A stretch of 64,000 bases of DNA from Hyphomicrobiales bacterium (GTDB lineage: Bacteria > Pseudomonadota > Alphaproteobacteria > Rhizobiales > Xanthobacteraceae): assembly GCA_003169835.1 (NCBI GenBank), contig PNAI01000053.1, forward strand, positions 1,147-65,146, in the 5' to 3' direction. Shown here piece after piece: positions 3,953 to 36,348 of this stretch. The position numbers were made by a program, and so were the translations under genes. Each line of letters begins with the position of its first letter. Positions within the stretch are counted from its first letter, which is position 1. The notes under the pieces were generated by a model. That model saw only the letters and a list, made by a program, of their open reading frames with translations, was not told where the DNA came from and searched no databases.

Positions 3953-4273
3953 CTACGCCGCCCGCGGCCTGATGGCCTTGAGCTTTTCACCGATCGCGCG
4001 CTTGCGTTCCATCAACTCGTAATCGGTCTGCAGGCCGAGGAAAAAACCCTCTGACATGCGAAAATAGCGCGCCAGCCGCAAATCGGTGTCGGCGGTGACC
4101 GCGCGCTTGCCGAGCACGATCTCGTTGATGCGGCGAGGTGGTACGCTAATAGCGTTTGCCAACGCTGTTTGCGAGAGTGCCATCGGCCGCAAAAATTCCT
4201 CCAATAAAATTTCCCCCGGGTGCGGATTGGGGAGGAGGTCAGTGGTAGTCGACGATTTCGACTTGGTGCGCAT
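3953..4273 (-). CDS. higA: HigA-family antitoxin (XRE-type HTH)
   Basis: A 106-residue antitoxin of the HigA/VapI type. Residues about 18-33 hold the typical entry NPHPGEILLEEFLRP, followed by the helix-turn-helix (LSQTALANAISVPPRRINEIV) and the family tail AVTADTDLRLARYF...FFLGLQ. The start at 4273 (MRTKSKSS) is preferred over longer in-frame starts because it overlaps the end of higB by 35 bases, the usual coupling. HigA binds HigB and, as a DNA-binding protein, represses the operon, most likely at the palindrome 4533-4554. Confidence 0.87.
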   Translation of the reverse strand: MRTKSKSSTTTDLLPNPHPGEILLEEFLRPMALSQTALANAISVPPRRINEIVLGKRAVTADTDLRLARYFRMSEGFFLGLQTDYELMERKRAIGEKLKAIRPRAA

Positions 4274-4520
4274 GGTTGTCCTTCCAAACGAAGCAAATCC
4301 GCCATTGATCGTTAATGCGGATCGCATGTTGTCCTTGCCGTTCATGTTTGAGCGCTTCCAGGCGGTTACCTGGCGGTACGCGGAGATCGTCAAGCCGTCT
4401 CGCATTGTTCAGCAGACGCAGTTTTCGCAGCGCCGCTGCTTGAATATCCGGCGGGAGCCGTCGGCTGCGCCGGCCAGCCCAAATCGTCGCGGTTTCCGTA
4501 TCGCGAAAGTTGACGATCAT
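4239..4520 (-). CDS. higB: HigB-family mRNA interferase toxin
   Basis: A 93-residue RelE/HigB-like toxin. It shows the family pattern MIVNFRD at the start, LPPDIQAAALRKLRLLNNA, the loop DLRVPPGNRLEALK, and the C-terminal catalytic strand YSIRINDQWRICF-like segment (HAIRINDQWRICFVW) ending VEIVDYH. HigB cuts translated mRNA on the ribosome. It precedes and overlaps higA, as usual for higBA. Together with brnTA 500 bases away it makes two toxin-antitoxin modules on the same strand. Confidence 0.87.
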   Translation of the reverse strand: MIVNFRDTETATIWAGRRSRRLPPDIQAAALRKLRLLNNARRLDDLRVPPGNRLEALKHERQGQHAIRINDQWRICFVWKDNHAHQVEIVDYH

Positions 4521-4532
4521 TCGAGCAATTTA

Positions 4533-4554
4533 TAACACATAACGTTATGCGTTA
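4533..4554. promoter_or_regulatory. Palindromic operator upstream of higB
   Basis: A 22-base inverted repeat with a single mismatched pair, centred on CATAACGTTATG (a perfect 12-base palindrome). It lies 13-34 bases upstream of the higB start codon and overlaps a -10-like TATAAAT on the minus strand. A dimeric HigA or HigBA complex would be the natural ligand; this assignment is by position and symmetry. Confidence 0.6.
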
Positions 4555-4788
4555 CAAGGATTGATTTTTCAGGTGAATACAAGAAGCAATGCATTGCGCC
4601 GAAGGGTTCGACTCAGGCGTGCCAGTTATTTCGCGGCCTTCCGCAATACGACATTGATGTGGCTCGACCCTACTTCCCCGTTAGAAATCCTCCAAGGTTT
4701 GCCGACCCCCTTGAATGTTGCGCGGGACAGGCTCAGTGATCCTGCTCGCGGGGCGCACAACTAAATTTTGTGAGAGGCGAGGCCGGAT

Positions 4789-34297: not shown

Positions 34298-35671
34298 ATG
34301 ACTGCCCGCGTCCTGGTCGTCGATGACCTTCCGGCCAACGTCAAGCTGCTGGAAGCGCGGCTCTCCGCCGAGTATTTCGACGTCACCACAACGATGAGCG
34401 GGGCGGAGGCCCTCGCCATTTGCGCGCGCGGCGAATGCGATATCGTGCTGCTCGATGTCATAATGCCGGACATGGACGGCTTCGAGGTTTGCCGGAAACT
34501 CAAGGGCGACCAGCTCACGCACCACATTCCGGTCGTCATGGTCACAGCTCTCGACCATGTGTCCGATCGCGTGCGCGGGCTCGAAGCGGGGGCCGATGAC
34601 TTTCTCACCAAGCCGGTCTCTGAAATCGCGCTGATTGCACGCGTGCGCTCGCTTGCGCGCCTCAAGATGATGACCGATGAATTGCGCATGCGCGCGGTGA
34701 CTTCCAAGGAGATCGGCATCCAGCTTACGGGGACCGAGGCCATCGCCGACGCCGGTCGCCAGGGCCGCATCCTAGTGGTCGACGATCGTCCGGCTTCGTA
34801 CGATCGCATCACCGGCATGCTTGCGAGCGAGCACACGATCGAAGTCGAGACCAATCCAAACCGGGCGCTTCTGCGCTGCAGCGATGCAAATTACGATCTT
34901 CTGATCGTATCGCTGGCCATCGAGAATTTCGACGCATTGCGGCTATGCAGCCAGGTTCGTTCGCTCGATCGCACGCGTAATGTGCCGGTCCTGGCGATTA
35001 CGGACAGCAAAGACAACGCGCGCATGGCGCGCGGGCTGGAGATCGGCATCAACGACTATCTGATGCGGCCGATAGATAAGAATGAGCTGCTCGCGCGCGT
35101 ACGCACCCAAATTCGCAAGAAACGTTACGCCGAGCGGTTGCGCGAGAATGTCCAGCAGTCGATCGAGATGGCGATCACGGACGGGCTCACTGGATTGTTC
35201 AATCGCTACTACATGGAGAGCCATCTTACCGCGCTGGTCGAGCAGGCGGCGGGGCGCGGCAAGTCGCTGACGCTGCTGATGCTCGATATCGACTACTTCA
35301 AGGCGATCAACGACAACTTCGGCCACGATGCCGGCGACGATGTTTTGCGTCAGCTCGCCAGCCGCATTCGCAAATCCATACGGGGCATCGATTTGGCGTG
35401 CCGCTACGGCGGGGAGGAGTTTGTCATCGTGATGCCGGAAACCGACATGGCGGTGGCGACCATCGTGGCGGAACGCCTGCGGCGCCGGATTGCCGCAGAG
35501 CCATTTACCATCCAGCAGGGGACCCGCCCCATCGAAACGACCATTTCCATTGGAATTGCCACGCTTGATACCGCAGGCGACAACGTCGCCAAGCTCATCA
35601 AAAGGGCCGACCAGGCCCTTTACCGGGCCAAACGCGATGGCCGGAACCGGGTCGTGGCCGACGCGGCCTGA
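34298..35671 (+). CDS. pleD: Diguanylate cyclase response regulator PleD
   Basis: A 457-residue PleD. The first receiver (residues 1-125) has DD at 9-10, Asp53 (VLLDVIMPD) and Lys near TKPVS. The second receiver (about 150-285) lacks the phosphoacceptor (LLIVSLAIENF) and serves as dimer adaptor, as in Caulobacter PleD. The GGDEF domain (about 290-457) has the active site GGEEF and, five residues upstream, an inhibition-site RxxD (RGID). It makes c-di-GMP at the cell pole when phosphorylated and drives the motile-to-sessile transition. divK precedes it by 12 bases. Confidence 0.96.
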   Translation: MTARVLVVDDLPANVKLLEARLSAEYFDVTTTMSGAEALAICARGECDIVLLDVIMPDMDGFEVCRKLKGDQLTHHIPVVMVTALDHVSDRVRGLEAGADDFLTKPVSEIALIARVRSLARLKMMTDELRMRAVTSKEIGIQLTGTEAIADAGRQGRILVVDDRPASYDRITGMLASEHTIEVETNPNRALLRCSDANYDLLIVSLAIENFDALRLCSQVRSLDRTRNVPVLAITDSKDNARMARGLEIGINDYLMRPIDKNELLARVRTQIRKKRYAERLRENVQQSIEMAITDGLTGLFNRYYMESHLTALVEQAAGRGKSLTLLMLDIDYFKAINDNFGHDAGDDVLRQLASRIRKSIRGIDLACRYGGEEFVIVMPETDMAVATIVAERLRRRIAAEPFTIQQGTRPIETTISIGIATLDTAGDNVAKLIKRADQALYRAKRDGRNRVVADAA

Positions 35672-35716
35672 GCGCGTTTTCGCGGAATCCTGTCCCTAAA
35701 TTTTACTGCAGCGGAT

Positions 35717-36128
35717 GAGTGGAATTTTACCTCCACTCGATTGTTTATAATTTTAGAGATGTCACGAGGCTGTTACCGGCATCAACCATAACCCTTTAGG
35801 TTGACGCCGGAATCCAGCTTCAAAGCAAGTGACTTAGATTGCTTTCCGGTACTGTTCCGGTAGCTTGAGGCGGTTGGGGCAATAACAAGAGAATTCAGTT
35901 AAAGGACTGCGGAGGCTAGTCTAAGAGCGGCTAACATCTATCTGATAACCCTACGGAATGCTCAGGTCCGCCGCATCTCCTGGGTCCGTGGGGTTCGGCC
36001 GGCCTGGAAGTGGTGTGAGTGGCCTCCTCATGACACCGCTTCCGGCCGGCCACCTATTTCCACCAAAACGATAGGGTTGCGGTTACGGCTGAGCAGACAT
36101 GCGCGGCCAGAATATCGGTTCAAATATC
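35717..36128 (+). ncRNA. Candidate structured RNA between pleD and its terminator
   Basis: This ~410-base stretch has no credible protein gene, yet holds a chain of stable hairpins on the strand that ends in a canonical terminator. They are GAGTGGA/TCCACTC (35717-35738), CCGGCATCAACC/GGTTGACGCCGG with one mismatch (35776-35810), AAAGCAA/TTGCTTT (35822-35845), a 17-pair hairpin at 35947-35995 (11 + 6 pairs with an ATG bulge), and a long imperfect hairpin with GGCCGGCC ends (35998-36051) whose loop contains CCTCCTC. A TATAAT at 35746-35751 could be a -10 box. It might be a separate small RNA or a long structured pleD 3' end. It does not match tmRNA, RNase P, 6S or SRP RNA by the motifs I know. 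Confidence 0.35.
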
Positions 36129-36157
36129 AAGGGCGCCCTGAGGCGCCCTTTTTCTTT
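36129..36157 (+). terminator. Intrinsic terminator downstream of pleD
   Basis: A perfect 9-base-pair stem (AAGGGCGCC/GGCGCCCTT) with a CTGA loop, followed by TTTCTTT on the plus strand. There is no T run on the minus side, so it serves plus-strand transcription (pleD or the structured RNA) and separates it from convergent rpmG. Confidence 0.92.
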
Positions 36158-36180: not shown

Positions 36181-36348
36181 TTATTTGATCTTGGATTCCC
36201 GGAATTCGACGTGCTTCTTGGCGATCGGGTCGTATTTCTTCTTGACCAGCTTCTCGGTCATGGTGCGCGAGTTTTTCTTGGTCACATAGTAGTAACCGGT
36301 GTCGGCGCTGGAGATCAGTTTGATCTTGGTGATGACGGCTTTGGCCAT
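36181..36348 (-). CDS. rpmG: 50S ribosomal protein L33
   Basis: A 55-residue L33. The protein reads [20 protein letters not shown], then VTKKNSRTM...[23 protein letters not shown]. It lacks the cysteine pair, so it is the zinc-free form usual in alphaproteobacteria. It lies downstream of the Nudix gene on the same strand (83-base gap). Short but unambiguous. Confidence 0.96.

Follow-up and report, generated by a model that had tools for sequence, protein, structure and literature searches.

EcpR1 (SmelC291, SmrC10, or Sra33; Atu_C6, Rfam RF02500) is described in S. meliloti as an independent transcription unit with pleD and rpmG as its neighbours (PMC4414408). There, the RNA is made from a sigma-70 promoter, is induced by ppGpp, stress, and stationary phase, and occurs in 171- and 142-nt forms beside a dominant RNA of 101 nt. 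It represses gcrA and dnaA via the loop of its first stem-loop (SL1), with RNase E being involved in the case of dnaA. The published mRNA-pairing loop is that of SL1 and not that of the second stem-loop (SL2), whose loop motif is less conserved than the SL1 loop. A putative EcpR1 of the same family, likewise a neighbour of rpmG, is described from Methylosinus sporium 5 (PMC12403871); its transcription has been mapped, whereas the member reported here is known from sequence alone.

EcpR1 between pleD and rpmG

The window that we analysed is the whole 64-kb stretch of DNA, in which the interval behind pleD (35717-36157, about 440 nt) had been put forward as a candidate for a novel structured RNA. 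Our search against Rfam revealed that this hairpin-rich stretch contains EcpR1, a known small RNA of Hyphomicrobiales, and is not a new RNA. In fact, RF02500 was matched at 99.9 bits, with a gathering cut-off of 60 bits, and because of this match the stretch is to be read as a known RNA; the original prediction of an RNA outside any known family is withdrawn with it. No other Rfam family was matched anywhere in the window, which rules out tmRNA, RNase P, 6S, and SRP RNA, as had been foreseen. The features of the locus are as follows.

34298-35671, + strand: pleD (two receiver domains and GGDEF), the upstream neighbour (ORF list; homologous loci in Hyphomicrobiales)
35716-35739, + strand: weak terminator-like hairpin, at which the divK-pleD transcript probably ends (terminator scan, 8 pairs with a T-rich tail; fold z = -2.3)
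35946-36056, + strand: EcpR1 core (RF02500; 99.9 bits, E 3e-13, model positions 1-113 of 113; covariation)
About 35947-35995, + strand: SL1, a 17-pair stem with an AAUG bulge (fold; across 29 relatives, 95-99% of cells retain the modelled pairs)
35967-35978, + strand: SL1 loop UCCGCCGCAUCU, the seed by which EcpR1 pairs with mRNAs in S. meliloti (identical to the motif in PMC4414408)
About 35997-36051, + strand: SL2, a long stem rich in GC (GGCCGGCC) whose loop, GGCCUCCUC, contains CCTCCTC (fold, alignment, covariation)
36129-36157, + strand: intrinsic terminator of the EcpR1 precursor (terminator scan; hairpin 36129-36150 and T tail)
36181-36348, - strand: rpmG (ribosomal protein L33), the convergent downstream neighbour (ORF list; conserved synteny)

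The order pleD-EcpR1-rpmG, with divK preceding pleD, is that of the published locus, and we regard the locus as a genuine but unremarkable representative of this known small-RNA family. It shares with the known system the full-model covariance match, the two stem-loops, an identical SL1 loop, both neighbours, a downstream intrinsic terminator, and, as predicted from sequence, a promoter with a TTGAT-like -35 box. It differs in a longer predicted precursor (about 280 nt versus 171 nt), in a -10 box that reads TAGCTT here and CAATGC there, and in a gcrA pairing site that is not recognisable in this genome. The gap itself spans 509 bases from the pleD stop (35671) to the rpmG C-terminus (36181, minus strand), and neither the ORF list nor the sequence offers a convincing ORF, in keeping with the predicted absence of a protein gene. 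Moreover, the upstream region has no second copy in the genome beyond 23-24-nt matches at chance level, which rules out a mobile or repeated hairpin.

EcpR1 was found in 29 of the 41 genomes searched, usually between pleD and rpmG, and in 108 of 199 genomes of the family, so that at this sensitivity about half lack it. No EcpR1 seed follows pleD in the Bradyrhizobium, Rhodopseudomonas, and Nitrobacter relatives (L034, L037-L052), and in several of these EcpR1-less genomes and their relatives the pleD-rpmG gap has shrunk to 65-240 bases. Such patchy occurrence has been noted before, with members lacking EcpR1 in several families, Bradyrhizobiaceae being named among them (Reinkensmeier et al., 2011; PMC3927594). 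In one genome (L027 1501-1957), EcpR1 and pleD are convergent rather than co-directional.

Fold and covariation of the two-stem-loop core

The five hairpins that had been predicted for 35717-36157 are real, as the stretch folds at -185.6 kcal/mol (z = -6.3) and none of 100 shuffles did equally well. This signal comes mainly from two parts, namely 35946-36056 (z = -6.1) and 35760-35845 (z = -5.6); between these two, 35846-35945 folds worse than its shuffles (z = +1.4). Lower contributions come from 35717-35770, at z = -2.3, and from 36057-36157, at z = -2.6. Of these hairpins, the 17-pair one with an ATG bulge corresponds to SL1 of EcpR1, the one closed by GGCCGGCC and carrying CCTCCTC in its loop is SL2, and the last, at 36129-36150 with its T tail, was confirmed as an intrinsic terminator. 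Downstream of the EcpR1 core, terminators were found for 45 of 102 relatives, as against 6 of 102 shuffled sequences, and the stem of the one found here could also serve the convergent rpmG.

Across the alignment of 29 relatives, the two-stem-loop core is backed by covariation. Changes on both sides were seen in 16 of the 29 pairs of SL1 and SL2, including 11 of the 14 pairs of SL2 helices 4 and 5, and this covariation exceeds that of every one of 500 shuffles. Likewise, standard pairs fill 94.6% of pair cells versus 88.1% in shuffles and 41-59% in slid versions. The covariation looked for in the original prediction is therefore present, though in a family that was already known. The SL1 loop is nearly invariant in these relatives. 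In the SL2 loop, the UCCUCG-like motif of the family takes the form GGCCUCCUCA here (36021-36030), and among the 29 relatives GGCCUC is invariant with a variable last base.

Outside the core, little is shared. When the whole gap was compared by blastn with the gaps of relatives, conservation was confined mainly to the region from about 35943 to 36060, the exceptions being a 22-nt match in one relative (L030) and short matches near the terminator.

Predicted promoter and upstream dyad

The sequence between pleD and the core holds further predicted elements.

35784-35802, + strand: conserved dyad AACCATAACCCTTTAGGTT, the proposed regulator-binding DNA site (unique in the 3.3-Mb genome when up to 2 mismatches are allowed; fixed spacing)
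35839-35844, + strand: predicted -35 box TTGCTT, with TTGATTTC as the consensus of the family (highest-ranking k-mer in front of EcpR1; promoter pattern at 54 of 102 loci)
35861-35866, + strand: predicted -10 box TAGCTT, with TAGCnT as the consensus of the family (aligned promoters; conserved columns)
35873-35945, + strand: predicted leader at the 5' end of the EcpR1 precursor, of unconserved sequence (no blastn conservation before 35943; fold of 35846-35945 below shuffles)

Together, the two boxes make up a predicted promoter, TTGCTT-N16-TAGCTT (35839-35866), that would place the transcription start near 35873. In the family, the corresponding pattern (TTG[A/C]TTTC ... TAGCnT) follows the dyad and precedes the core by about 100 nt, and was found at 54 of 102 loci versus 0.43 expected from shuffles, a count that is partly descriptive since the pattern was derived from the same loci. 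Many of these 102 loci are interrelated, and the spacing of the dyad is the more independent test. Of the 54 promoter-bearing loci, 31 have a dyad with at most 3 mismatches of 12 at a distance of 53-57 nt ahead of the -35 box, as compared with a mean of 0.08 and a maximum of 1 in 200 shuffles.

The dyad (AACCATAANNNTTTAGGTT) came to light by tracing the 22-nt match in L030 and lies about 160-215 nt upstream of the seed in several relatives; in this genome it extends to TCAACC...GGTTGA (35782-35804). Its TTTA is placed 43-45 nt before the -35 box at 26 of 52 family loci, and a related TTTA sequence has the same spacing, 43-44 bp, at all 14 loci from other families (Mesorhizobium and others). 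By hand comparison of coordinates, a dyad match with at most 2 mismatches lies within 300 bases upstream of EcpR1 in 28 of the 108 EcpR1 genomes, in one case on the opposite strand, and about 16 further matches lie elsewhere in such genomes. Only some of the family loci show a recognisable combination of dyad and promoter.

Although the dyad sits in the strong hairpin at 35766-35821, upstream of the predicted promoter, that hairpin is conserved only in its centre (AACCATAACCCTTTAGGTT). In relatives, the arms flanking it lack complementarity, and most of them have mispairs at two inner positions of the dyad, for which reasons, together with the fixed spacing of 53-57 nt, we read the dyad as DNA and not as an RNA helix, and propose that it is a regulator-binding site of the EcpR1 promoter. 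A CtrA site was dismissed on inspection, the dyad being a misfit to TTAA-N7-TTAA. It seems unlikely that the dyad instead forms part of a second, upstream promoter, with its right flank GGTTGAC as a -35 box and hence two EcpR1 starts. GGTTGAC does follow the dyad in many relatives, but a consensus scan gave no sigma-70-like pair there, the aligned sequences show no consistent -10 box after the dyad, and other families have TTTACCTTAATCC in place of GGTTGAC.

The same evidence bears on the extent of the RNA. Were the whole stretch one structured RNA of about 440 nt, formed by the 3' end of the pleD mRNA with EcpR1 as its 3' half, the upstream hairpins would be functional domains, and the z-scores of -6.3 for the whole and -5.6 for 35760-35845 alone fit with this. 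We nonetheless hold such an RNA to be very improbable, given that blastn found no conservation upstream of 35943 in L032 and L033, that the arms around the dyad do not pair in relatives, and that a conserved promoter-like pattern stands between the dyad and the core. Moreover, in two relatives (L030, at 4100-4640, and L031) extra sequence parts pleD from EcpR1, and the dyad stays with EcpR1. The first hairpin, at 35717, is then a probable pleD terminator and the second a DNA dyad within unconserved GC-rich arms, which leaves no single RNA from 35717 to 36157. What stands of the predicted regulatory 3' RNA for the cell cycle is a structured regulatory RNA from a cell-cycle-linked family; with its own conserved promoter-like pattern, and in view of its independence in S. 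meliloti, EcpR1 is probably not a 3' RNA of pleD.

Among the reporters tested in S. meliloti, the one carrying the most upstream sequence did not differ from the rest in stationary phase, so that a counterpart of the dyad, if any exists there, may be dispensable under those conditions. We found no description of the conserved dyad and its promoter spacing in a non-exhaustive search of the EcpR1 literature. The analysis strikes one mistaken entry from the candidates for new RNA classes. Its modest addition is this conserved and evenly spaced pair of promoter and upstream DNA site, which, if the site is real, offers a handle on what, besides ppGpp, switches EcpR1 on. Family members without EcpR1 (L174-L182, L185, L186) carry about one copy per genome of a similar palindrome (CTTAACCCTAATTTTTAAGGTTGAT), which lies upstream of an outer-membrane-protein-like gene and does not mark a hidden EcpR1.

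Predicted action and targets

Taking the locus as a whole, we are highly confident that it is an EcpR1 gene with a predicted promoter of its own, encoding a trans-acting sRNA of two stem-loops, and that the other upstream hairpins fall outside the RNA. The sigma-70-type promoter at 35839-35866, along with the dyad at 35784-35802 as a putative regulator site, would drive a precursor of about 280 nt from near 35873 to the terminator end at 36157, and trimming as in S. meliloti would leave the core of about 110 nt (35946-36056). Under stress or starvation, the exposed SL1 loop (UCCGCCGCAUCU) would most likely pair with GC-rich sites in mRNAs, and by analogy with gcrA and dnaA in S. meliloti such pairing may block translation or promote decay by RNase E, and so slow the cell cycle.

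In many relatives, the gcrA leader carries a block (ACATCTCGTGCGGCGGAC) complementary to SL1.

In this genome, that block is eroded (TACGATATCTCGTACGGGACAC), the longest exact complement to SL1 being 5 nt, and our complementarity test gave no pairing of gcrA above chance. Some genomes retain the block although they have no EcpR1, and exact complements of at least 9 nt occur in 8 of the 22 EcpR1-bearing genomes and in 1 of the 8 that lack EcpR1, a difference that is not significant. Pairing with gcrA is thus unsupported here, the block being eroded in this genome and present in EcpR1-negative ones; so is pairing with dnaA, for which the same test showed nothing above shuffles in this genome. 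It is about an even call whether EcpR1 works here via other mRNAs, such as pleC, a prospect that is compatible with an EcpR1 gene acting in trans. The unsupported gcrA and dnaA pairing favours it, as does the prediction of pleC by Robledo et al. when Xanthobacteraceae and neighbours were included; on the other hand, a loop nearly invariant across the order might be expected to have shared core targets. Outside Rhizobiaceae, the agreement of predicted targets is lower, with pleC still highly ranked (Robledo et al., PMC4414408), and the predictions for M. sporium 5 are similar in lacking a consistent cell-cycle set (PMC12403871). The conserved loop is present here although the gcrA pairing site is lost, which makes the question of core targets testable. 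Only tentatively, we suggest from these sequence patterns that EcpR1 transcription across Hyphomicrobiales might be under an undescribed regulator at the dyad/TTTA site (about 44 bp from TTTA to the -35 box), and that the present lineage may have moved from gcrA to other targets.

As a further observation, many Hyphomicrobiales have a conserved leader block, TACGACATCTCGTGCGGCGGAC, at about 110-140 nt ahead of gcrA; it is complementary to the EcpR1 loop, yet some EcpR1-negative genomes retain it and in the genome of the window it is eroded. It lies, for instance, about 135 nt before the start codon in L128, and is also seen in L118, L120, L129, L132, and L134.
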